A stretch of DNA of 64,000 nt from Bradyrhizobium amphicarpaeae (GTDB lineage Bacteria; Pseudomonadota; Alphaproteobacteria; Rhizobiales; Xanthobacteraceae): the NCBI RefSeq assembly GCF_002266435.3, contig NZ_CP029426.2, positions 4,742,001 through 4,806,000 of the forward strand, read 5' to 3'. Under the pieces are notes generated by a model. It did not search any database. It was not told where the DNA came from and saw nothing but the letters and a program-made list of their open reading frames with translations. A program made the translations under genes and the position numbers. Below, piece by piece: positions 50,393-63,044 of this stretch. Within the stretch, counting starts at the first letter, position 1. Every line of letters begins with the position of its first letter.

Positions 50393-50575
50393 CAGTATCT
50401 CCATCGGCGCGCAGCGCCATAAAAGAACAGCGTGTGGGGAAAGTCGGCGGGGAAGATTCTCCGCGTCAACGTCGTAAACGAAGTCTGAAGCGCCGAGCAA
50501 GTAGCGCCAGTATTGAGTTTAGTTCAACGTAATTTCTATGCACTATTTCACGACCATCATGATGGACCGACGCCG

Positions 50576-50818
50576 ATGATCGAGAAACGTGCAGCGCAGC
50601 GTCACCGTGTTTTCAAGGGTGGAACGATCACCTTTGAAAACGGCGGTATTCCCTGCACCGTGCGAAACATGTCGGCGGGCGGCGCGGCGATAGACCTCGA
50701 CACCCCCGTCACATTGCCGCAATCGTTCACGCTATCGATCGCGCACGACGATCTCGTCCGGAATTGTCGCACAGTTTGGCGCAGTGACAAGCGCGTCGGC
50801 CTCGCCTTCGTGCAATAG
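50576..50818 (+). CDS. PilZ domain protein
   Basis: 80 aa, a lone PilZ domain. The cyclic di-GMP binding residues are seen as RAAQRHR (RxxxR) near the start and NMSAGG ((D/N)xSxxG) after 28 residues. A small c-di-GMP receptor that could respond to the diguanylate cyclase encoded at 25.9 kb or others. The ATG at 50576 is chosen to start at the domain. Confidence 0.88.
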   Translation: MIEKRAAQRHRVFKGGTITFENGGIPCTVRNMSAGGAAIDLDTPVTLPQSFTLSIAHDDLVRNCRTVWRSDKRVGLAFVQ

Positions 50819-52456: not shown

Positions 52457-52813
52457 TCAACTGGAAGCAGTCTGCTGCTGGAACTGATCGTACGCCGCGA
52501 TCGCATCGGCTGCGTACATCAGCGACGGTCCGCCGCCCATATAGACGGCCATGCCGAGCGTCTCCTCGATCTCTTCGCGTGTCGCACCGAGCTTGACCAG
52601 CGCTTCGGTGTGGAAGCCGATGCAGCCGTCGCAATGCGCGGCGACGCCGAGTGCCAGCGCCATCAGCTCCTTGGTCTTCTTGTCCAACGCGCCGTCCCGC
52701 GTGGCGGCCTGGGCGAGTGCGGAAAATCCCTTCATGGTGTCGGGAATGTCGCTTCGCAGCTTCTTCAGATTGGCCGAGATGTTCCTGGTGATGTCGACGT
52801 AGTTCTTGTCCAT
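52457..52813 (-). CDS. Carboxymuconolactone decarboxylase (AhpD-like) family protein
   Basis: 118 aa. CDGCIGFHTEALVKLGATREEIEETLGMAVYMGGGPSLMYA is the CMD/AhpD signature; the CxxC plus nearby His is the AhpD-type peroxidase or thiol-reductase site. It starts 7 nt after the RND pump gene, at the end of that operon, so a redox or organic-peroxide role alongside efflux is likely but unproven. Confidence 0.9.
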   Translation of the reverse strand: MDKNYVDITRNISANLKKLRSDIPDTMKGFSALAQAATRDGALDKKTKELMALALGVAAHCDGCIGFHTEALVKLGATREEIEETLGMAVYMGGGPSLMYAADAIAAYDQFQQQTASS

Positions 52814-52820
52814 TGGATCC

Positions 52821-55800
52821 TCATGAGCTGGATTTGGCTGTGGTCGAAGCCGCCTCGCGCGGCGCGCGCAAGGCGATGTAGATCGCGGGGATCACCAGCA
52901 CGGTGAGCAGGGTCGACGAGGCAAGTCCGAACAGAAGCGAGATCGCCAATCCCTGAAAGATCGGGTCGAGCAGGATCGTTGCGGCCCCGATCATGGCCGC
53001 AAGCGCGGTGAGCAGGATTGGCTTGAAGCGGACCGCGCCGGCTTCCAGCACCACCTCGCGCAGCGACTTGCCGTCCGCGCCGCTGTGACGGATGAAATCG
53101 ACCAGCAGGATCGAGTTGCGCACGATGATGCCGGCCAGCGCGATGAAGCCGATCATCGAGGTCGCGGTGAACGGCGCGCCCAACAGCCAGTGCCCGATCA
53201 GGATGCCGATCAGCGTCAGCGGTATAGGCGTAAGGATGACGAGCGGGAGACGAAAACTCCTGAACTGGGCGACGACCAGCACGTAGATGCCGAGGATGGC
53301 CGCACCGAAGGCGGCGCCCATGTCGCGGAAGGTCACCCAGGTGATCTCCCATTCGCCGTCCCACAGCAGCGTCGGACGCGACTCGTCGGTCGGCTGGCCG
53401 TGCAGGCTGATCGCGGGCTTCGGCAGCCTGCCCCAGTCATGGGCCTCCACGCGGTCGGCAACCGCGAGCATGCCGTAGAGCGGCGCCTCGAAGCGTCCGG
53501 CGAGTTCGGCCATCACCATATCGGCGAAGCGGCCGTCGCGGCGGAAGATCGTCGGCGAGCCCTGCTCCATCGTCGCCTTCACGACCTGACCGAGCTCGAC
53601 CACCGTCCTGCTGCCGGGCAACGTGTTCGCCGGCACCGGCGTCGAGGCCAGCGCCTCGTCCCAGACCAGATCGCGTTTTCCGAGATGCACCGCGATCTCG
53701 ATCGGGTTGCGGTCCTCGCCGCGATGCGAATAGCCAATCGAGATACCGCCGAACAGCGCCTGAATGGTGTCGTAGACATCGCGCTGCTCGACGCCGAAGA
53801 ATTCGAGCCGGTCCTGGTCGATCGAGAGCCGTAACCGGGGCCGCTTGGCGCCGATGGAATCGTCGACGTCGACGATGAACGGCACTTCCGCGAACACCTT
53901 CTTGAGCTCGGCCGTGACCGCACGGCGTGTGGCTGCATCGGGACCGTAGACCTCGGCGAGCAGCGTCGAAAGCACCGGCGGCCCGGGCGGCACCTCGACC
54001 ACCTTGATGCTGGTGCCCGCTGGCGTATCGAGCGCCTTCAGCTTCTCGCGCAGCTCCAGCGCGATCTCGTGGCTCGCGCGCTTGCGCTCGCCCCGCGCGG
54101 CCAGGTTGACCTGCACTTCGCCGAGTTCGGGCCTCTCCCGCAGATAATAATGCCGCACCAGGCCGTTGAAATTGAACGGCGCCGGCGTGCCGGCATAGGA
54201 TTGCAGCGAGGTGACCTCCGGCAATTGCCGCGCGATCTCGGCCGCGCTGAACAGCGTGCGCTCGGTCGCCTCCAGGCTCGCCCCTTCCGGCAGGTCGACG
54301 ACCACGGCGATCTCGGACTTGTTGTCGAACGGCAGCAGCTTGACCGTCACCGACTTGGTCGCAAACAGCGTCATCGACGCCAGCGTCGCGATGCCGACGC
54401 CGAGCAGGAATATCCAGGCCGACCGCTTGCTGCGCACGATCGGCGTGGCGAACCGCCGGTAGAGCCGACCGAGCCGGCCTTCATCATGCGCCGCATGCGC
54501 GGAGGCCACCTCGCCCTTTGGGGCGAGCTTGAGCATCAGCCAGGGCGCGACCACCATCGCGACGAAGAACGAGAACAGCATGGCAGCCGACGCGTTGGCC
54601 GGGATCGGCGCCATATACGGGCCCATCAGGCCCGACACGAACAGCATCGGTAACAGTGCCGCGACCACGGTCAAGGTCGCGACGATGGTGGGATTGCCGA
54701 CCTCCGCCACCGCCTCGATGGTCGCCTGCAGGCGCGGCCTGCCGTCGCGCATGCCCCAGTGCCGCGCGATGTTCTCGACCACGACGATGGCGTCGTCGAC
54801 GAGAATGCCGATGGAGAAGATCAACGCGAACAGGCTGACACGGTTGATGGTGTAGCCCATCAGATTGGCGGCGAACATCGTCAGCAGGATCGTCGTGGGA
54901 ATCACGACGAAGGTCACCAGCGCCTCACGCCAGCCGATCGCGACCGCGATCAGGATGACGATCGAGACGGTCGCAAGGCCGAGGTGGAACAGCAGCTCAT
55001 TGGCCTTCTCGTTGGCGGTCTCGCCGTAGTCGCGCGTCACCGTCACCTGGATATCCTCGGGGATCAGGCGCGACTTCAAGCCCTCGAGGCGCTTGGCGAT
55101 GTTCTCGGAGACGACGACGGCATTGGCACCGGCCCGCTTGGCCAGTGCGAGACTGACGGCGGGCGTCCTCGCCCAATGCCCGCCGGCATCGCGCGAATCC
55201 GTCCAGACGCGATGCTCGACGGTGCTCGGGCCGACGACGACGGAAGCAACGTCCTTGACGTAGACCGGCCGGCCGTCGCGGCTCGTGATCAGCAGCAATC
55301 CGATGTCGGGAATGCCGGACAGCGTCTGCCCCGCCGCGACGCTCCGCACGATGCCGGCATCGCGGACCTGCCCGGCCAGGAACGAGCGATTGGCGTCCTT
55401 CACCTTGGCCACGAGTTGCTGCAGCGTGATCCCGAACAGCGACAGCTTCTCCGGATCGGGCTCGACCCGGATCTGTTGCGCCGCGCCGCCGGAAATGTAG
55501 GTCAGGCCGATGTCGTCGACCTTCATCAGCTCCGATCGCAGCTTGTCGGCGAGCTCGTAGATGTCCTTGTCGGTCCAGCGGCCGGCGGCCTCCGGCTTCG
55601 GCGACAGCGTCAACACCGTCACCGCGACGTCGTTGATGCCCCGGCCGACGATCAGCGGCTCGGGAATGCCGACGGGAATGCGGTCGAGATTGGCGCGGAT
55701 TTTCTCGTGCACCCTGAGGATGGCATCCTCGAACTTGGTGCCGACCAGGAAGCGCGCGGTGACCATCACGCGGTCGTCCTCGGTCTGGCTATAGACATGC

Positions 55801-56048
55801 TCGACGCCGTCGATGCCCTTGACGATCGATTCCAGCGGCTTGCTCACCAGCTCCACCGCGTCCGGCCCGCGCAAGCCGTCGGCATTGACGCGGATGTCCA
55901 CCATGGGAACGCTGATCTGCGGCTCCTCCTCGCGCGGGATCACCACGACGGCGATCAGCCCCACGACGAGTGCCCCGATCAGGAACAGCGGCGTCAGCGG
56001 CGATGCGATGGTCGACCGGGTCAACCGTCCTGACAGACCGAGATTCAC
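52821..56048 (-). CDS. RND family efflux pump, inner-membrane subunit
   Basis: 1075 aa, twelve predicted helices and two large periplasmic loops. TM4 carries GILVDDAIVVVENI with the proton-relay Asp pair. TM10 carries GIIVRNSILLVDF, with Arg where AcrB has Lys940, as in a separate subgroup of hydrophobic-compound RND pumps. The N-terminus VVIPREEEPQISVPMVDIRV is typical of that subgroup. GTG start at 56048 overlaps the membrane-fusion-protein stop (GTGA). No outer-membrane channel gene is adjacent. The substrate is unknown. Confidence 0.93.
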   Translation of the reverse strand: MNLGLSGRLTRSTIASPLTPLFLIGALVVGLIAVVVIPREEEPQISVPMVDIRVNADGLRGPDAVELVSKPLESIVKGIDGVEHVYSQTEDDRVMVTARFLVGTKFEDAILRVHEKIRANLDRIPVGIPEPLIVGRGINDVAVTVLTLSPKPEAAGRWTDKDIYELADKLRSELMKVDDIGLTYISGGAAQQIRVEPDPEKLSLFGITLQQLVAKVKDANRSFLAGQVRDAGIVRSVAAGQTLSGIPDIGLLLITSRDGRPVYVKDVASVVVGPSTVEHRVWTDSRDAGGHWARTPAVSLALAKRAGANAVVVSENIAKRLEGLKSRLIPEDIQVTVTRDYGETANEKANELLFHLGLATVSIVILIAVAIGWREALVTFVVIPTTILLTMFAANLMGYTINRVSLFALIFSIGILVDDAIVVVENIARHWGMRDGRPRLQATIEAVAEVGNPTIVATLTVVAALLPMLFVSGLMGPYMAPIPANASAAMLFSFFVAMVVAPWLMLKLAPKGEVASAHAAHDEGRLGRLYRRFATPIVRSKRSAWIFLLGVGIATLASMTLFATKSVTVKLLPFDNKSEIAVVVDLPEGASLEATERTLFSAAEIARQLPEVTSLQSYAGTPAPFNFNGLVRHYYLRERPELGEVQVNLAARGERKRASHEIALELREKLKALDTPAGTSIKVVEVPPGPPVLSTLLAEVYGPDAATRRAVTAELKKVFAEVPFIVDVDDSIGAKRPRLRLSIDQDRLEFFGVEQRDVYDTIQALFGGISIGYSHRGEDRNPIEIAVHLGKRDLVWDEALASTPVPANTLPGSRTVVELGQVVKATMEQGSPTIFRRDGRFADMVMAELAGRFEAPLYGMLAVADRVEAHDWGRLPKPAISLHGQPTDESRPTLLWDGEWEITWVTFRDMGAAFGAAILGIYVLVVAQFRSFRLPLVILTPIPLTLIGILIGHWLLGAPFTATSMIGFIALAGIIVRNSILLVDFIRHSGADGKSLREVVLEAGAVRFKPILLTALAAMIGAATILLDPIFQGLAISLLFGLASSTLLTVLVIPAIYIALRAPREAASTTAKSSS

Positions 56049-57067
56049 GGCTGCACCAATTGGTCACCGACCTGGATACCCGAGAGGATTTCGAGCCCGT
56101 CCGGAAGCGAAGGCGTCGGCATGTCGCGGCCGCGCTGCACCGGCACGTCGATCGTCTCGCTGCCTTTCCGGAGCTGGACGTAGTCGATGCCGAACCGCGT
56201 CGTCACGCAGCTCGAAGGAATCACGAAGGCCGGCCGCGTGCCGCTGGCGATCCAGACACGCAAGCGATCCCCGACGAAATATTCGCCGAGCCCCTCGACG
56301 GTCGCGTCCGCAATGACGCGCCCCTCCTCGATCTGGGGATAGACGAGGTCGATCACGCCGCGCTTCGAGGCTTCTCCCGCCAGCTCCGCGCCATCGACGC
56401 GGACCTTGTCGCCGGCCTTCAGAAACCGCGCATGGCGCTCCGGCACGCGCAGCCGCAGCTTGAAGTTCTGCTCGGCGACCGTCACGATCGGGTCGCCGGC
56501 GAGCACGACGGATCCCAACGTGATCAGCCGCTTCAACACGCGCCCGTCCGCCGGCGCGAGCACCTGTCCCTGGTTGAGCTGCTCGTTGATGACGGCACGC
56601 TCCGCAGTCTTGGCGCGCAGGCCGTTGTCGGCGACATTGAGCGCCGTGCGCTGTTCGTCGAGCTTGATGCGCGGCAGAATACCGCGCTCGACCAGCCCTT
56701 CGGTCCGGGTGAAGTCGAGCTGCGCCTGCTTGGCCTGAGCCTGCAGCGCCTCGATCTGCGCGTCGAGCGATTTCATCTGCAGGACCAGCTTCTCATCGCC
56801 GATGGCCGCGATGACTTGACCGGCGGTGACGCGATCGCCTTCCCGCACCTTGAGCTGAACGACAGTGCCGCCGATCCGGCTACGCGCGGGGACCACGCTG
56901 ATACTCTCGACGGTCGCGAAGACCGCCTTCTCGTCGGTGACCGGCTGTTGCGCGACGGTCAGCGTTTCCGCGGCGCCAGCAGATCCCGTCGGTACTCCGA
57001 TTGCCGCCCACGCAGCCAGAAGCCCCAGGCGCGCCAGATGTTGCAAAGGACACATCCCTACCGTCAT
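56045..57067 (-). CDS. RND efflux periplasmic adaptor (membrane fusion protein)
   Basis: About 340 aa. A signal peptide (ending GSAGA-AETL) is followed by barrel-sandwich (SRIGGTVVQLKVREGDRVTAGQVIAAI), a helical hairpin (LQMKSLDAQIEALQAQAKQAQLDFTRTEGLVERGIL), and APADGRVLKRLITLGSVVLAGDPI returning to the lipoyl half. It links the RND pump to an outer-membrane channel. The frame extends to a GTG at 57079; 57067 is favoured by a GGAA site. It follows the BigR-like gene by 102 bp. Confidence 0.9.
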   Translation of the reverse strand: MTVGMCPLQHLARLGLLAAWAAIGVPTGSAGAAETLTVAQQPVTDEKAVFATVESISVVPARSRIGGTVVQLKVREGDRVTAGQVIAAIGDEKLVLQMKSLDAQIEALQAQAKQAQLDFTRTEGLVERGILPRIKLDEQRTALNVADNGLRAKTAERAVINEQLNQGQVLAPADGRVLKRLITLGSVVLAGDPIVTVAEQNFKLRLRVPERHARFLKAGDKVRVDGAELAGEASKRGVIDLVYPQIEEGRVIADATVEGLGEYFVGDRLRVWIASGTRPAFVIPSSCVTTRFGIDYVQLRKGSETIDVPVQRGRDMPTPSLPDGLEILSGIQVGDQLVQP

Positions 57068-57169
57068 CGGTTCCATCACACCGCGTCGCGGTGCCCTTTC
57101 ATTTCATCGACATCGGGCGCCGGCGTGTTGATCTCGCGCAAGGCGCAGCCGCTCGCCATTTCCTAGGCT

Positions 57170-57490
57170 TCATTTCGTCCTTGCGGACTTCGGCGCGCAA
57201 AACACCTGATAGAGCGTCTTCAGGATTGCGCGCGCCGGCTCGCTGGCGATCGAATAGAAGATCGTTTGCGCATCGCGCCTGGAGGCGACCAGGCCATCCT
57301 TGCGAAGGAGCGCAAGATGCTGGGAGACCGTCGAGTCCCGCAAGCTCAGGAACTCGGCCAGCTCGCCGACCGACCGCTCGCCGTCGATCAGCTGGCAGAT
57401 GATGAGAAGACGGTGACGATTCGAGAGCGCCTTGAGCAGCTCGCTCGCCTGGTCCGCCGCCCGCTCCATGATTTCGCTATCTATTTTCAT
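57170..57490 (-). CDS. bigR: ArsR-family persulfide sensor, BigR/SqrR type
   Basis: 106 aa. The winged helix contains LSNRHRLLIICQLIDGERSVGELAEFLSLRDSTVSQHLALLRKDGLVASRRD. Cys32 and Cys98 are 66 residues apart, exactly the spacing of the sensor cysteines in SqrR (41/107) and BigR (42/108), which form a tetrasulfide link with reactive sulfur and release DNA. Metal-binding ArsR motifs (ELCVCDL) are missing. It is divergent from the sulfide oxidoreductase operon and upstream of the RND operon. The ATG at 57490 begins 2 nt from a perfect palindrome. Confidence 0.88.
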   Translation of the reverse strand: MKIDSEIMERAADQASELLKALSNRHRLLIICQLIDGERSVGELAEFLSLRDSTVSQHLALLRKDGLVASRRDAQTIFYSIASEPARAILKTLYQVFCAPKSARTK

Positions 57491-57492
57491 AC

Positions 57493-57526
57493 TTGCGTAT
57501 ATACGCAAATACGAATATATAGTCAA
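57493..57526. promoter_or_regulatory. Overlapping divergent promoters with 16-bp palindromic operator
   Basis: ttgcgtatatacgcaa (57493-57508) is a perfect palindrome. Rightward: -35 ttgcgt (57493-57498), 17-nt spacer, -10 tatata (57516-57521), for sqr. Leftward: -35 TTGACT (57526-57521), 17-nt spacer, -10 TATATA (57503-57498), for bigR. The leftward start would fall at or next to the bigR ATG (57490), giving a leaderless message. The repressor should block both. Confidence 0.7.
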
Positions 57527-57585
57527 GCGCCGCATGACGATCGGACCTGAACCGGTGAAGCGGCCTGATCCAACGGAGGTTACCC

Positions 57586-58872
57586 ATGGCGGAGATTGTC
57601 GTAATCGGTGCCGGTCTGAGCGGAACGCTGATGGCCTATGAATTGCTGCCCCAGTTGAGAAAGGAGGATCGCCTCAGCGTCGTCTCGCAAGGCGCGGTCT
57701 ATCATTTCGTGCCCTCGAATCCGTGGGTGGCCGTCGGCTGGCGCAAGCGCGAGGAGATCGAGATCGATCTCGCAAACGTCATGAAGCGCAAGGGGGTGCG
57801 CCTGCTGACGCAAGGCGCAAAGCGCGTCCACCCCGAGGAGAACCGTATCGAGCTCGGCGACGGCTCGTCGATCGACTATGATTATCTGGTCGTCGCGACC
57901 GGTCCCGAACTCGCCTTCGACGAGATCCCCGGCCTCGGCCCGCAGGGCCACACGCAATCGATCTGCCACGTCGATCACGCCGCGCACGCGAAGGACGCGT
58001 TCGAAAAACTCGCGGCGAACCCCGGCCCGGTCGTGATCGGCGCCGTTCAGGGCGCCTCCTGCTTCGGGCCCGCCTACGAGTTCCTCTTTATCCTGGAGAC
58101 AGAGCTGCGCAGGCGCAAGTTGCGCGACCGGGTGCCGATGACCTTCGTCACTTCGGAGCCGTATATCGGCCATCTCGGTCTCGACGGCGTCGGGGACACC
58201 AAGGGTCTTCTGGAAAGCGAGATGCGCGAGAAGCACATCAAGTGGATCACCAACGCCCGCGTCGACAATGTCGCCCCCGGCTTGATGACGGTGGAAGAAC
58301 TCGCCGACAACGGCACGTCCCGCAAGGCCCATGAACTGCCTTTTGCCTATTCGATGATGTTGCCCGCCTTTCGCGGCGTCGAGGCGGTGCGCGGTATCGA
58401 GAAGCTGACCAATCCGCGCGGCTTCGTCATCGTCGACAAGCATCAGCAGAACCCTGCCTTCCCCAACGTGTTTGCGGTCGGCGTCTGCGTCGCGATCGCG
58501 CCGGTCGGCGCGACACCGGTGCCGGTCGGCGTCCCCAAGACCGGCTTCATGATCGAATCCATGGTGACGGCGACCGCGATGAACATCGGCGCCCTGCTCC
58601 GCGGCAAGGCGCCGACGGCGCAGCCGACCTGGAACGCGATCTGCCTCGCCGACTTCGGCGATTCCGGCGTCGCCTTCCTCGCGCAGCCGCAGATCCCGCC
58701 GCGCAACGTCAATTGGTCCTCCAAGGGCGAATGGGTGCACTTCGCCAAGGTCGCCTTCGAGAAATACTTCCTGCGCAAGATGCGGCGCGGCGAGAGCGAG
58801 CCGTTCTACGAGCGCTTCCTGCTCGACCGGCTGAACATCGCCAAGATCAAGGAGGTCCGAACCGGCACATGA
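57586..58872 (+). CDS. sqr: Sulfide:quinone oxidoreductase
   Basis: 428 aa flavoprotein that oxidises sulfide to polysulfide at the membrane and passes electrons to the quinone pool. The FAD motif VVIGAGLSGTLMAYEL is at the start and VVATGPE at about 102-108. Cys127, Cys159 and Cys353 coincide in number with the three essential cysteines of Rhodobacter capsulatus SQR (427 aa). The C-terminal FAKVAFEKYFLRKMRRGESEPFYE helix suits membrane attachment. First gene of the operon; its stop overlaps trxC (ATGA). Confidence 0.92.
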   Translation: MAEIVVIGAGLSGTLMAYELLPQLRKEDRLSVVSQGAVYHFVPSNPWVAVGWRKREEIEIDLANVMKRKGVRLLTQGAKRVHPEENRIELGDGSSIDYDYLVVATGPELAFDEIPGLGPQGHTQSICHVDHAAHAKDAFEKLAANPGPVVIGAVQGASCFGPAYEFLFILETELRRRKLRDRVPMTFVTSEPYIGHLGLDGVGDTKGLLESEMREKHIKWITNARVDNVAPGLMTVEELADNGTSRKAHELPFAYSMMLPAFRGVEAVRGIEKLTNPRGFVIVDKHQQNPAFPNVFAVGVCVAIAPVGATPVPVGVPKTGFMIESMVTATAMNIGALLRGKAPTAQPTWNAICLADFGDSGVAFLAQPQIPPRNVNWSSKGEWVHFAKVAFEKYFLRKMRRGESEPFYERFLLDRLNIAKIKEVRTGT

Positions 58873-59312
58873 GTACGACACGCCAGATCGTCTGCGGACA
58901 TTGCCGGCGCATCAATCGCCTGCCGGCCGAACGCGCTCCGCAAGGTGCGCGCTGCGGCGCCTGTCACCAGCCGATGTTCGCCGGCCAGCCGATCGAGGTG
59001 GACGAAGCAGCCTTCGACCGCCATGTCGCCAGCAGCGACATTCCCGTGCTGATCGACGTCTGGGCGCCATGGTGCGGACCCTGCCGCGCCATGGCACCGA
59101 TGTTCGAGCGCGCGGCGCAGGCGCTCGAACCCGGCGTGCAGCTGTTGAAGCTGAATTCAGACAATGCACCCGCATTGTCGTCGCGGCTCAACATCAGCGG
59201 CATTCCGACGCTGCTGTTGATGCATGGGGGTCGCGAGATCGCCCGCCATTCCGGCGCGATGGATACGCGCAGCATCGTCGCCTGGACCGAAGCCAAACTG
59301 AACCGTTCGTAA
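58869..59312 (+). CDS. trxC: Thioredoxin 2 (TrxC)
   Basis: 147 aa. The N-terminal zinc finger has CGHCRRIN and CGACHQPMF, and the thioredoxin domain has WAPWCGPCRAMAP and ISGIPTLLLMHGG. Unlike Trx1, Trx2 carries the zinc motif and is linked to oxidative stress. Beside sqr it probably reduces persulfide or polysulfide products. It overlaps sqr by 4 nt. Confidence 0.93.
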   Translation: MSTTRQIVCGHCRRINRLPAERAPQGARCGACHQPMFAGQPIEVDEAAFDRHVASSDIPVLIDVWAPWCGPCRAMAPMFERAAQALEPGVQLLKLNSDNAPALSSRLNISGIPTLLLMHGGREIARHSGAMDTRSIVAWTEAKLNRS

Positions 59313-59337
59313 CGTCGCCAATCAAAAGGAGCCTGCC

Positions 59338-59541
59338 ATGAATGTCGATAAAGCCGTCCTCGCCTTTGCGGGGTTCGTCGTCCTGCTCGGTCTCGCACTG
59401 GGCACTTATGTGAATGCGTATTGGTACCTGCTGACGGCGTTCGCCGGGCTGAACATGTTGCAGGCCTCGTTCACGGGATTCTGCCCGGCGGCGATCGTGT
59501 TCAGGAAGCTGGGCCTGAGCAGCGGCTGCGCGTTCTCCTGA
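59338..59541 (+). CDS. DUF2892 (YgaP-like) small membrane protein
   Basis: 67 aa with two transmembrane segments: AVLAFAGFVVLLGLALGTYVNAYW and LLTAFAGLNMLQASFTGFCPAAIVFRKLG. The family is the membrane part of YgaP, where it is joined to a rhodanese; here it is free. FCPA and a C-terminal GCAFS give two cysteines that might interact with reactive sulfur. In the sqr operon. Confidence 0.9.
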   Translation: MNVDKAVLAFAGFVVLLGLALGTYVNAYWYLLTAFAGLNMLQASFTGFCPAAIVFRKLGLSSGCAFS

Positions 59542-59581
59542 ACGCAACGCAGATGCAGTCAGTGATGCGGGGGAATTTGCC

Positions 59582-61018
59582 ATGACCGACGACACCTTCA
59601 TCGAGGGGCCTCTCTACGAGAAGCGCAGGAAGGTCTATCCGCAATCGGTCCACGGGCGGTTCCGCCGCATCAAATGGGCGATCCTGTGCGTCACGCTCGG
59701 GGTTTATTATCTCCTGCCGTTTGTGCGCTGGAATCGCGGACCCGGCCTGCCCGACCAGGCGGTGCTGATCGACCTGCCGCATCGCCGCTTCTATTTCTTC
59801 TTCATCGAGCTGTGGCCGCAGGAGGTGTATTACTTCACCGGCCTCCTCATCCTCGCGGCCATGATGCTGTTCCTGATGAACGCAGTCGCGGGGCGGCTGT
59901 GGTGCGGCTATCTGTGCCCGCAGACGGTGTGGACCGATCTGTTCTACGCCGTTGAGCGCTGGGTCGAGGGCGATCGCCGCGAGCGCATGCAGGGCGACAA
60001 GCGCTACTGGAGCTTCGACCACATCCGGAAGGTCGCACTCAAACACTTCCTCTGGGTCATGATCGCCTGGTGGACCGGCGGCGCCTGGGTGCTGTATTTC
60101 GACGACGCGCCGACCCTGGTGAAGGAGCTCGCCACCTTCCAGGCCCCGTTCATCGCCTATCTCTGGATCGGCATCCTGACCGCCACGACCTATGTCTTCG
60201 CCGGCCACGCCCGCGAGCAGATGTGCATCTACATGTGCCCGTGGCCGCGCATCCAGGCGGCCTTGACCGACGAATGGGCGCTCAACGTCACCTATCGACG
60301 CGACCGCGGCGAGCCGCGCATGTCGGTGAAGAAGGCGGAAGCCGCCCGTGCCCATGGCGATTTCGCCGGCGATTGCGTCGATTGCCACCAGTGCATCAAT
60401 GTCTGCCCGACCGGCGTCGACATCCGCCACGGCATCCAGCTCGGCTGCATCCAGTGCGGCCTGTGCATCGACGCCTGCGACAACGTAATGAGCGAGATCG
60501 GCCGGCCCCAAGGCCTGATCGGCTACGACACCGACATCAACATGCAGCGCCGGCGCGAGGGCAAGCCGCCGATCTATCGTATCGTGCGCGCGCGCACGCT
60601 GATCTATGTGGCCGCGATCGCCATTGTCGGCAGCGTCATGCTGTACACTCTCGCCACGCGCGCGACCCTGGACGTCAACGTGCTGCACGAGCGCAATCCG
60701 CTGTTCGTTCAGCTCTCGGATGGCGGCGTGCGGAACGATTACACCGTGCGCATCCTCAACAAGGGCGCAGAGCGATCTTTCGCGCTCAAGGTCTTGGACC
60801 TGCCAGGCGCCACGGTTCGCGTCGCGGGCGTCGAACCGGGACCAGACGGTAACACGATCGTCCTTGTTGGACAGGATCAGACCCGCGAGGTCCGGATGTC
60901 GGTGCAGGTTTCGCCCGACCGCGTGCCCAAGTCCGCGATCGATATCGGAGTTGAGATCACCGATGTCGCAAGCGGGGAGCGCGCCGAGGCGCGCGATCAT
61001 TTCGTGCCGAAGGAGTGA
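59582..61018 (+). CDS. ccoG: CcoG (FixG) family ferredoxin-like membrane protein
   Basis: 478 aa with five or six transmembrane segments. WCGYLCPQTVW is near the start; MCIYMCPWPRIQAAL follows; two 4Fe-4S clusters bind CVDCHQCINVCP and CIQCGLCIDACD; a C-terminal immunoglobulin-like periplasmic domain follows the last helix. CcoG reduces Cu2+ to Cu+ for cbb3 oxidase assembly. It is separate from any fixHIS genes here and shares the sqr operon, which is unusual. Confidence 0.92.
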   Translation: MTDDTFIEGPLYEKRRKVYPQSVHGRFRRIKWAILCVTLGVYYLLPFVRWNRGPGLPDQAVLIDLPHRRFYFFFIELWPQEVYYFTGLLILAAMMLFLMNAVAGRLWCGYLCPQTVWTDLFYAVERWVEGDRRERMQGDKRYWSFDHIRKVALKHFLWVMIAWWTGGAWVLYFDDAPTLVKELATFQAPFIAYLWIGILTATTYVFAGHAREQMCIYMCPWPRIQAALTDEWALNVTYRRDRGEPRMSVKKAEAARAHGDFAGDCVDCHQCINVCPTGVDIRHGIQLGCIQCGLCIDACDNVMSEIGRPQGLIGYDTDINMQRRREGKPPIYRIVRARTLIYVAAIAIVGSVMLYTLATRATLDVNVLHERNPLFVQLSDGGVRNDYTVRILNKGAERSFALKVLDLPGATVRVAGVEPGPDGNTIVLVGQDQTREVRMSVQVSPDRVPKSAIDIGVEITDVASGERAEARDHFVPKE

Positions 61019-61043: not shown

Positions 61044-61928
61044 TCAAGCCATGAGACGTTGCAGCCTCGACTGCGCGCGCGGGGCCATGACGATGTCAGG
61101 CGCGAGCTGGACCGAACTGTCGTGCACGACCTCTTCCGTCACGACGTTGAACCGAACCAGCTCCGCCTGGCCGAACGCCGTCGAGATCGCGACGTCGGCG
61201 GCGTCGCGGCCGCGGGCAATGACGATCCGGCCGATGCGCGGATGGTTGTGGCGCGCGTCGAACGTGTACCATCGACCACCGATATAGGCCTCGAACCAGG
61301 CGCTGAAATCCATCGGTGCCGGGTCGGGAGGCACCCCGATATCGCCGAGATAGCCGGTGCAATAGCGCGCTGGAATGTTCATGCAGCGGCACAACGTCAC
61401 GGCCAAATGGGCGAAGTCCCGGCAGACGCCGATGCGCTCGGCATGACCTTCGGACGCCGTGCGGTCACCGCGTGCAAACTGGTAGCCGAATTTGATGCGG
61501 TCGTGGACATAGTCGCAAATCGCCTGCACGCGCTGACCGCCGCCTTCAATCTTGCCGAAGGTCGACCAGGCCAGATCCGCCAGTTTCTGGGTGTCGCAAT
61601 AGCGGCTGCCCAGCAGATAAACGAGCGTGTCGTCGGGCAGGTCCTGAAGCTGAAGCTGAGCTGCGAACGGCGCCGCCGGCTCGGGAACGCCGGAATCTGC
61701 GATCACGAAGTCGTTGCGGATCTCGATCAGACCGCTTGGCGCGACCACGCGGGTGCAGACGTTGCCGAAGGCATCGAGGTAGTCCCTGGTGGCAACACCG
61801 GGCGTGGTCTGGATGGCGTGCGGGGACAAGAGATCGCCGTGCCGCGACGGATGCACACTCAGCATCAGGATCATCGGGACGTCTTGAAGGCAATTGAACG
61901 CAATGTCGTAGCCGGCGCGAATCTTCAA
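61044..61928 (-). CDS. Transglutaminase-like family protein, altered triad
   Basis: 294 aa. A TTG start at 61928, preceded by GAGGAG, gives MKIRAGYDIAFNCLQDVP. The core domain has the nucleophile Cys169 (GVCRDFAHL) and Asp224 (YTFDARHN). The position usually held by catalytic His is Ser209 (MDFSAWFEAY). Family members are cysteine-protease or transglutaminase-like cytoplasmic enzymes. It is divergent from a second transglutaminase-like gene 198 bp away. Confidence 0.85.
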   Translation of the reverse strand: MKIRAGYDIAFNCLQDVPMILMLSVHPSRHGDLLSPHAIQTTPGVATRDYLDAFGNVCTRVVAPSGLIEIRNDFVIADSGVPEPAAPFAAQLQLQDLPDDTLVYLLGSRYCDTQKLADLAWSTFGKIEGGGQRVQAICDYVHDRIKFGYQFARGDRTASEGHAERIGVCRDFAHLAVTLCRCMNIPARYCTGYLGDIGVPPDPAPMDFSAWFEAYIGGRWYTFDARHNHPRIGRIVIARGRDAADVAISTAFGQAELVRFNVVTEEVVHDSSVQLAPDIVMAPRAQSRLQRLMA

Positions 61929-62126
61929 GATCGTCTCCTCGGAGTCGTCGTTGACCTCAGCGCAAACACCTGCCCCGGCGCATTCGTTCCGCGTCTTCGG
62001 CTGCAGCGCTGCTGAAATGAAGGGCAATTGTGCCTGTCGCCCCCTTTCCTCTGCCGTATCCCTCGAATCCCTGCTTGGACCGGGGACGAAAGCAGGGTCA
62101 TATGGCCGCGGGCCGGAAGCGAGCAC

Positions 62127-63044
62127 ATGACAACCTACGCCGTCCACCACAGAACGATCTACCGCTATCGTCAGCCGGTGAAGCTCGGGCAGCACCAGCT
62201 GCTATTCCGGCCACGCGACAGCTACGACCAGCGCCTGCTGGACTGCCGGCTCGTCATCCGGCCCGAACCCGCCGAAATCCGCTGGATTCACGACGTCTCG
62301 GGCAATTGCCTCACGCTGGTCGACTTCGACACCGTGAGCGACCGGCTCGAGTTCGACACCACTATCGAGCTCGACCATACGCCGGAGAACACGCCGGACT
62401 TCCGCATCGAGGACTACGCCCGCGAGCATCCGTTCGCCTATGCGGACAGCGAGTTGCCAGATCTCGAACCCTATATGCGTCGCCATCATCCCGACGATGT
62501 CGCCGTGGAGGAGTGGTTGGCCAAGTTCGTGGCAGCGGACGGCCGGCGGCCCACGGGCCAATTGTTGATGACGCTCAACGAGGCCATTGCCGAAGGCTTC
62601 TCCTACCAGCGCCGGACGATGCGGGGAACACAGACGCCTGCGGAGACGCTTGAGTTGCAGCAGGGGACATGCCGCGACTTCGCGCTGCTGATGATGGAGG
62701 CGGCACGCGCGCTCGGCTTCGCCGCCCGCTTCATCACCGGCTATGTCTACGTCGCCGATCGCGACGGGCCGGCGCGGCTCGGCGGCGGCTCGACCCACGC
62801 CTGGTGCTCGATCTACGTGCCCGGCTCGGGCTGGGTGGAGTTCGATCCGACCAACGGCATCGTCGGCAATCGCGACCTGATCCGGGTCGGCGTCGCCCGG
62901 ACGCCGCAGCAGGCCATTCCGCTCTGGGGCTCCTATTGGGGAGAACCCGAGGACGATCTCGGCATGGAAGTCTCGGTGAACGTGAAGACCGAGCGGGCTC
63001 CTCCGGCCGACCAGCCCGCCGCGACATCGTCAACGCGACGTTAA
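62127..63044 (+). CDS. Transglutaminase-like family protein, intact triad
   Basis: 305 aa. An N-terminal bacterial transglutaminase-like domain (MTTYAVHHRTIYRYRQPVKLGQHQLLFRPRDS) precedes the core with Cys182 (GTCRDFALLM), His224 (GGGSTHAWCSIY) and Asp240 (WVEFDPTNG). A probable cysteine amidase/protease or ligase; often found with alpha-E and circularly-permuted ATP-grasp genes in other genomes, which are not visible here. It starts at 62127. Confidence 0.9.
   Translation: MTTYAVHHRTIYRYRQPVKLGQHQLLFRPRDSYDQRLLDCRLVIRPEPAEIRWIHDVSGNCLTLVDFDTVSDRLEFDTTIELDHTPENTPDFRIEDYAREHPFAYADSELPDLEPYMRRHHPDDVAVEEWLAKFVAADGRRPTGQLLMTLNEAIAEGFSYQRRTMRGTQTPAETLELQQGTCRDFALLMMEAARALGFAARFITGYVYVADRDGPARLGGGSTHAWCSIYVPGSGWVEFDPTNGIVGNRDLIRVGVARTPQQAIPLWGSYWGEPEDDLGMEVSVNVKTERAPPADQPAATSSTRR

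Follow-up and report, generated by a model that had tools for sequence, protein, structure and literature searches.

A repressor-led locus of Bradyrhizobium amphicarpaeae in which a predicted shared promoter-operator element joins a sulfide-oxidation arm to an RND pump arm

The locus described here lies in a 64 kb window (the whole stretch of DNA analysed, whose own numbering is used below) of the 7.03 Mb, single-contig genome of Bradyrhizobium amphicarpaeae, and places a SqrR/BigR-type repressor gene between a gene for sulfide:quinone oxidoreductase (SQR) and an operon for an RND efflux pump. Repressors of this family sense sulfane sulfur by means of a bridge joining their two cysteines, according to the accessible parts of PMC12423496. 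The operator of an SqrR is given as ATTC-N8-GAAT in the accessible text of PMC9774250. SqrR of Rhodobacter capsulatus has a regulon that includes SQR and a rhodanese, and the SqrR-regulated genes named in the accessible text of PMC9995734 are sqr and rcc01557, the term RND having no occurrence in it. The present locus resembles this system in the ArsR fold of the repressor with two cysteines, in an ATTC-N8-GAAT-type operator and in the predicted control of SQR; in contrast, its repressor gene stands between sqr and the RND operon, with one shared divergent element. The bigR-blh operon of Xylella and Agrobacterium is similar in its repressor family and its connection with sulfide and persulfide detoxification, whereas no Blh is found at this locus and the dioxygenase of this genome is encoded elsewhere. 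In Escherichia coli ygaVP, a SqrR-type repressor gene adjoins a YgaP-type membrane domain; here, unlike in ygaVP, the membrane domain is free of rhodanese, shares an operon with SQR and is accompanied by a pump.

The nearest precedent for a pump is the H2S-induced operon Dsui_3440-3443 of Azospira suillum PS, which encodes, in the accessible portion of PMC5358917, an unknown protein, an RND permease, SQR and an adaptor, and a DUF2892 gene of the same organism is strongly induced as well. This likeness, SQR and RND genes together with DUF2892 involved, is one of gene content, and the Azospira operon differs in having SQR inside the pump operon, another gene order and, in that portion, no named regulator. 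SqrR/sHdrR-type ArsR genes near RND pumps were also reported by Li et al. 2025 (PMC12423496), the accessible parts of which describe neither an operator nor an ortholog group nor how the promoters are built. An association of RND pumps with SqrR-type repressors or with SQR is therefore already known, at least from what is accessible of these two papers. The search of open-licence literature returned no print of a delimited permease group, of a shared mirror-image promoter-operator, of operator-like sites persisting before the pump under changed gene order, or of the dispensability of SQR.

Based on the comparison of gene order and upstream sequence across related genomes, the locus is probably a two-armed regulon for sulfide or sulfane-sulfur stress, and the pump very probably belongs to it. 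The sequence-only reading had placed eight genes here, and family scans bear out their positions and families as follows.

52457-52813, minus strand: AhpD-like carboxymuconolactone decarboxylase-family protein with a CxxC motif (PF02627 82.4 bits, TIGR00778 51.7 bits)
52821-56048, minus strand: RND permease (PF00873 474 bits), assigned by identity to a distinct sulfide-linked ortholog group
56045-57079, minus strand: periplasmic adaptor, RND_mfp (TIGR01730 123.8 bits, cut-off 94.9)
57170-57490, minus strand: SqrR/BigR-type ArsR repressor with a length of 106 amino acids, containing Cys32 and Cys98
57586-58872, plus strand: sulfide:quinone oxidoreductase, sqr (nearest solved structures 3sz0 and 3kpk)
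58869-59312, plus strand: TrxC, a thioredoxin that carries CGPC and a zinc ribbon (NF008229 128.7 bits, cut-off 125)
59338-59541, plus strand: free YgaP-like membrane domain, DUF2892, with a conserved FCP motif (PF11127 38.4 bits, cut-off 25.3)
59582-61018, plus strand: CcoG/FixG (TIGR02745 559.8 bits, cut-off 316.7)

The pump arm thus comprises the repressor, adaptor, RND and AhpD-like genes, all on the minus strand, and the sulfide arm comprises sqr, trxC, the DUF2892 gene and ccoG, all on the plus strand, with sqr and trxC overlapping by 4 bases. The SQR is similar to 3sz0 over its whole length (E 2e-142), and its Cys127, Cys159 and Cys353, which we take to be the catalytic cysteines, are conserved in 52 of 52 aligned sequences. 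It is the sole SQR of its type found in the genome, the runner-up being a partial match at 25% identity. CcoG is a second genome copy, 65% identical to the other at C1:2180933, and its interpretation as a member of an oxidase cluster was rejected, none of the eight genes being an oxidase. The RND permease falls below the cut-off of each NCBIfam RND subfamily that it matched (best 421.7 versus 1250). Of a tripartite RND system, the permease and the adaptor are both encoded in the pump operon, and no outer-membrane channel gene was found there. Counts of RND proton-relay motifs were not used, because the patterns were loose and missed many cases (e.g., 15/40 for DD).

The two arms are separated by an element of about 40 nt that is conserved in relatives, with CTTGACtATATATTCGtAttttCGTATATACGCAAgTATG directly preceding the repressor ATG. 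The relatives come from a scan of named genomes, of which the best 80 of at least 453 repressor relatives were kept; four of 20 further loci duplicate named ones (L118=L072, L119=L080, L120=L084, L123=L104) and were not counted again, and the counts of gene order and of the element refer to the 80 named loci alone. The element was aligned for the 79 loci with enough sequence, and a weight matrix built from these 79 scored the sites. The following features are predicted.

57498-57519: main operator-like site, TATATACGCAAATACGAATATA, reading ATATTC-N8-GTATAT on the other strand; 37.3 bits, the top score of the window
57482-57503: second, overlapping operator-like site, extending into the first repressor codons; 25.0 bits
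57491-57526, minus strand: predicted repressor/pump promoter, with the -35 box TTGACT at 57521-57526, a 17 nt spacer, the -10 box TATATA at 57498-57503 and 7 nt to the ATG
57493-57521, plus strand: predicted sulfide-arm promoter, its mirror image, with TTGCGT at 57493-57498, a 17 nt spacer and TATATA at 57516-57521

The element therefore reads as two mirror-image promoters around a SqrR-like operator. The boxes of the repressor promoter are exact in 74/79 (TTGAC) and 61/79 (TATATA) relatives, the sulfide-arm box TTGCG (CGCAA) in 69/79, and the ATTC-N8-GTAT between the predicted -35 and -10 boxes has its exact form in 53/79. The second site lies at an equivalent offset in most named relatives among the rows listed. 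Elsewhere in the window, outside the cluster of overlapping sites at 57480-57521, no score exceeds 3.1. A scan for sigma-70-type promoters over 57000-57620 gave no site under a rule that accepts only -10 boxes ending in T; the proposed -10 box ends in A, outside this rule, and the promoter therefore rests on conservation. Across the 7.0 Mb genome, the only exact match of the pattern is this element, and the only match with one mismatch lies in a sox cluster. The 18 matches with two mismatches, including the overlapping site at 57482-57503, are largely chance, since a reversed control pattern alone yields 8 at two or fewer mismatches.

The position of the repressor start bears on this arrangement. 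The longest open reading frame begins at 57535, whereas the ATG at 57490 gives a protein of 106 amino acids beginning MKIDSEIM. The latter start is the likelier, because an ATG sits there in 79 relatives and conserved promoter-operator bases precede it; the start at 57535 was rejected, as the sequence upstream of 57490 is a conserved promoter-like element. With 7 nt between the -10 box and the ATG, a leaderless repressor mRNA is predicted. The protein is an ArsR winged helix whose nearest solved structures are HlyU, 13ct, 6o8k and BigR 3pqj (E 1e-24 to 5e-21); PHROGs profiles matched it only in families of unknown function. Cys32 and Cys98 line up with the cysteines of the 13ct and 6o8k chains, which we take to be SqrR of R. 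capsulatus. Among the named relatives, Cys98 is conserved in 80/80 and Cys32 in 79/80, the exception being the repressor of an Acetobacteraceae metagenome-assembled genome (L107:10001-10303), which has Ser at this position and no pump adaptor behind it; its sensing may possibly be lost or altered. A third cysteine at position 104 occurs in 15/80 named repressors, most of which do not belong to the main group of Bradyrhizobium (L096, L099-L101, L103, L105-L110, L112, L113, L115, L116).

Gene order around the repressor is widely conserved. Gene counts from the 80 loci derive from tblastn edges and are lower bounds, because several loci end at contig ends (e.g., L074, L078, L092, L096, L108). Relatives whose repressor is 94-98% identical are all Bradyrhizobium, and the complete locus is present, for example, in strain BTAi1 (L086). 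The adaptor gene follows on the same strand within 1 kb behind the repressor in 74/80 loci, with RND next in 72/80, an arrangement that by these counts is far beyond chance; the pairing that the sequence-only reading wanted surveyed is thus retained in close relatives, together with the cysteine pair. Divergent from the repressor, DUF2892 is found within 3.5 kb in 71/80, SQR within 3 kb in 52/80, TrxC within 3.5 kb in 50/80 and CcoG within 5 kb in 37/80. At the 72 loci with RND at 60% identity or more, DUF2892 is present in 69/72 versus SQR in 51/72, so that the pump, the repressor and DUF2892 form the core and SQR is optional. In nine genomes of the same family with an SQR-free locus, six have an SQR of that type elsewhere (62-68% identity), and the other three (G029, G037, G053) have only partial SQR matches of 26-32% in the genome. 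Since relatives keep the pump with the repressor where SQR has moved, the pump family probably helps survival under sulfide.

Some genes change arms. The ahpD gene lies in the pump arm in 36/80 loci and in the sulfide arm in 7/80, ccoG is placed behind RND in L085, and a gene for a sulfur dioxygenase-like protein directly follows RND in two loci (L109, L113) and belongs to the sulfide arm in two others (L072, L078). Such switching of ahpD, ccoG and dioxygenase genes would be expected if one signal governs both arms. The dioxygenase-like genes of these four loci were identified by an identity of 50-57% with a protein of L231, whose own match, of 361.6 bits, is to the dioxygenase portion of the Blh model (the cut-off of 625 refers to the whole fusion). 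No adaptor lies behind the repressor in six loci (L076, L094, L098, L107, L111, L114); in four of them, the pump-free L094, L098, L111 and L114, a sulfur dioxygenase-like gene lies 0.9-2.1 kb behind the repressor, and a second BigR-like ArsR gene comes directly after it.

The neighbourhood was also surveyed starting from the pump. Permease searches covered 240 alphaproteobacterial genomes, with three candidates scored in each, and 398 genomes of the phylum, with two in each. Among the matches listed, permeases of at least 62% identity occur in at least 21 of the 240 genomes, the own genome included, below which come a partial match at 43% and then 31%; among those listed for the phylum genomes, the first group is followed by groups at 42-47% and 37-40%. 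This break in identity sets the RND permease apart as an ortholog group of its own. The first-group sample consists of 40 loci, namely all 20 non-own genomes and 20 of 28 further genomes at 60% or more (those left out are G395, G442, G611, G349, G500, G590, G609 and G639), and first-group permeases with internal stop codons (e.g., G298, G176, G242) were counted unchanged. The distant sample comprises 38 loci in 36 genomes, drawn from well over 100 matches listed at 37-47% identity, and the controls are 20 unrelated RND loci with matches of about 24-31%, one of them from the own genome. Within 6 kb of first-group permeases, DUF2892 is found in 30/40, a BigR-like ArsR in 30/40, SQR in 19/40 and any of these in 35/40; the corresponding values in the 37-47% groups are 22/38 for DUF2892, 10/38 for the ArsR and 7/38 for SQR, and each of the three is found at 0/20 of the control pumps. 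Other neighbour clusters, identified from one scanned member each, are rhodanese (14/78 loci), TauE (4), DUF6691 and YeeE-type (3 each), sulfur dioxygenase-like (3) and a TolC-family outer-membrane cluster (16/78). Among the ArsR genes found near the pumps, 43 in all, 31 keep both cysteines at the expected positions.

Two further features were seen at the surveyed pumps. In ArsR genes behind RND (L228, L231, L233, L236, L238, L240 and others), the first cysteine is kept and the second lies a few residues earlier, in a TLC/LLC motif, and these proteins are perhaps a distinct sensor subtype. Six loci with permeases of 43-46% identity and no DUF2892 or SQR nearby (L248-L252, L259) have in common a gene of 137-200 amino acids located 1.3-2.2 kb upstream, the L252 member of which gave no Pfam match when scanned.

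Where gene order changes, the position of the operator-like site can be followed independently of the repressor gene. The best site per locus reaches 15 bits in 25/40 first-group loci, in 14/38 of the distant groups and in 0/20 controls. At first-group loci in which the adaptor has no repressor gene ahead of it on its own strand, the top-scoring site lies before the pump operon in 26/34, where this position means 900-1800 nt ahead of the RND start, i.e., before the adaptor or a preceding DUF2892 gene; 6% would be expected, and the controls gave 1/20, a comparison that addresses the preference of the matrix for A+T-rich stretches and leaves the kinship of some compared genomes unaddressed. In 15 of the 26 positive loci, the site scores 15 bits or more. 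At several loci where the repressor or a sulfide gene diverges from the adaptor, the operator-like site may serve both sides. Where sqr is distant, an operator-like site of 26-30 bits is located about 140-210 bp upstream of it in four of six genomes; in L321, the fifth, a site of 19.8 bits stands ahead of a repressor-like gene that precedes sqr, and the sixth (L320) has no operator-like site at sqr.

From these comparisons, a probable mechanism is proposed for the locus, the first step of which, repression of both arms from a single operator, has good comparative support. The inducer, the sulfur-bridge switch and the chemistry of SQR and TrxC are carried over by analogy from characterised relatives, and the gene order, the conserved shared element and the tie of the pump to operator-like sites derive from the genome comparison. 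Without sulfane sulfur, a dimer of the SqrR/BigR-type repressor would occupy 57498-57519, and probably also 57482-57503, and by covering the two face-to-face promoters would keep both arms silent and limit its own synthesis. A rise in persulfide or polysulfide could then form a sulfur bridge between Cys32 and Cys98, upon which the repressor would leave the DNA and allow transcription of sqr-trxC-DUF2892-ccoG rightward and of bigR-adaptor-RND-ahpD leftward, the latter as a predicted leaderless mRNA. SQR may convert sulfide to polysulfide at the quinone pool and TrxC may reduce persulfides. As a guess, CcoG probably takes part in restoring copper and haem oxidases poisoned by sulfide, and the pump probably rids the periplasm or membrane of a product or toxicant that contains sulfur, a hydrophobic polysulfide or a low-molecular-weight persulfide being the most natural guess for its cargo. 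The shared element and the predicted leaderless mRNA would together make a compact, testable switch.

Several observations weigh against this reading of the regulon. The repressor scores 89.8 bits with the BigR equivalog NF040642, below the cut-off of 155; within the window, no separate operator-like site falls in the 90-bp repressor-adaptor gap (57080-57169), and this gap widens to 391-540 bp in 11/74 relatives. The pump arm would be read through the repressor gene, and an unregulated promoter in the 90-bp gap is conceivable. None of DUF2892, SQR and BigR-like ArsR is near the permease in 5/40 first-group loci, and the distant loci at 37-47% identity divide into 22/38 with and 16/38 without DUF2892 or SQR nearby. 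The operator-position test gave 11/35 in the more distant groups, and 11 of the 26 positive first-group loci have a weak site below 15 bits, the lowest being 2.8. In 12/43 of the pump-near ArsR genes, the second cysteine is missing from its usual position, though 10 of the 12 carry one a few residues before it. Finally, deletion of the Azospira SQR-RND operon left the H2S oxidation rate unchanged, according to the accessible portion of PMC5358917. A separate operator in the repressor-adaptor gap was considered and rejected, as none was found in the window or among the relatives listed (L041-L116).

That the pump should be no more than a common multidrug pump which happens to adjoin the repressor, with an unrelated promoter of its own, is very unlikely. 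The predicted read-through of the pump arm and the gap free of operator-like sites would accommodate such a pump, whereas the conserved adjacency, the sulfur-related neighbours found in 0/20 controls, the operator position (26/34 versus 1/20) and the absence of minus-strand terminator-like sites in 57000-57620 argue for membership in the regulon, and largely settle what the sequence-only reading had deduced from strand and spacing. That reading also described a two-sided sulfide-stress locus led by a BigR-type repressor, which agrees with the one operator-like element overlapping both predicted promoters. Its further proposal, that SQR, TrxC and the pump substitute for a persulfide dioxygenase, is highly improbable. 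In its favour, the 64 kb window has no persulfide dioxygenase, as had been noted, two dioxygenase queries giving no tblastn E value better than 1.3, and no Blh exceeds the family cut-off in the genome. However, the best sub-threshold Blh match, at C1:6837267, is a protein of 343 residues with a metallo-beta-lactamase fold and a C-terminal rhodanese, the best solved relatives of which are 4ysb, BpPRF (5ve3) and the persulfide dioxygenase ETHE1 (4chl), and judged by these relatives the gene at 6.84 Mb encodes an ETHE1-type dioxygenase-rhodanese fusion. The 3.4 kb locus of this fusion has no operator-like site (best -2.2 bits). The dioxygenase-free route thus falls, because the genome encodes a dioxygenase outside this regulon, and L109, L113, L072 and L078 carry dioxygenase and pump in one cluster; the two-sided regulon with its pump is the part of the earlier interpretation that stands.

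As to the cargo of the pump within the two-armed regulon, most weight is given to a sulfur species or a sulfur-bearing toxicant, with metal complexes and organic electrophiles as further candidates. Tentatively, and with considerable doubt, the permease group (about 37% identity or more, in Pseudomonadota) may be a dedicated tripartite exporter of sulfane sulfur with DUF2892 as a sulfur-passing membrane partner, which would take polysulfide, S8 or small persulfides from the periplasm or the outer leaflet of the inner membrane, where SQR would leave them. Alternatively, sulfide could be only the signal and the cargo could be metal-sulfide or metal-thiol complexes, or metals freed from sulfide-damaged metalloproteins. 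CcoG is a copper-handling assembly factor, and its gene shares the sulfide arm with sqr; a heavy-metal P-type ATPase cluster, identified from one scanned member, lies near 3/40 first-group permeases, and a metal cargo was proposed for the sulfide-induced RND pumps of A. suillum in the accessible portion of PMC5358917. However, with 249 bits the permease stays below the CusA/CzcA cut-off, which is 701, and the family scan of the eight locus genes revealed no metal ATPase or metal chaperone, so that this possibility is considered unlikely. Drug-named RND efflux pumps carry organic molecules, and the nearest solved permeases are efflux pumps, several of them named for drugs. Together with the AhpD-like CxxC protein, whose gene lies in the pump arm in 36 named relatives, they suggest that the pump and AhpD might act on organic electrophiles, organosulfur toxicants or hydroperoxides that raise persulfide, with the repressor reporting thiol damage in general. 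This seems rather improbable, however, as the recurrent neighbours of the permease group in Pseudomonadota are DUF2892, SQR, rhodanese, sulfur dioxygenase, TauE and DUF6691/YeeE-type genes and as AhpD is near just 3/40 first-group and 3/38 distant permeases in the pump-first survey. For the sulfane-sulfur exporter, no efflux pump shown to remove SQR-made polysulfide was found in open-licence papers. The disposal of polysulfide after SQR is only partly understood, with dioxygenases and reductases described, and a conserved RND group under a SqrR-type operator would be a concrete candidate for polysulfide efflux and would assign a physiological function to one branch of these transporters, which are mostly studied for drug resistance.

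The genome has a second repressor-like gene, whose neighbours are SoxY, SoxA, cytochrome c, a YeeE-type transporter and a CcdA-like protein; its assignment as a BigR paralogue with Blh was rejected, these being sox-cluster genes. The operator with one mismatch lies in this cluster (L117:8926-8945, G000 C1:2826925-2826944), which has its own ArsR paralogue, and this suggests cross-talk between the two repressors of the genome. Adjoining the sulfide locus in the window are genes for two transglutaminase-like proteins on opposite strands, at 61044-62195 (minus) and 62028-63044 (plus), which overlap and are also present in five named relatives (L037, L038, L052, L054, L058). Beyond the pump arm, a small PilZ-domain protein is encoded at 50513-50818 on the plus strand.

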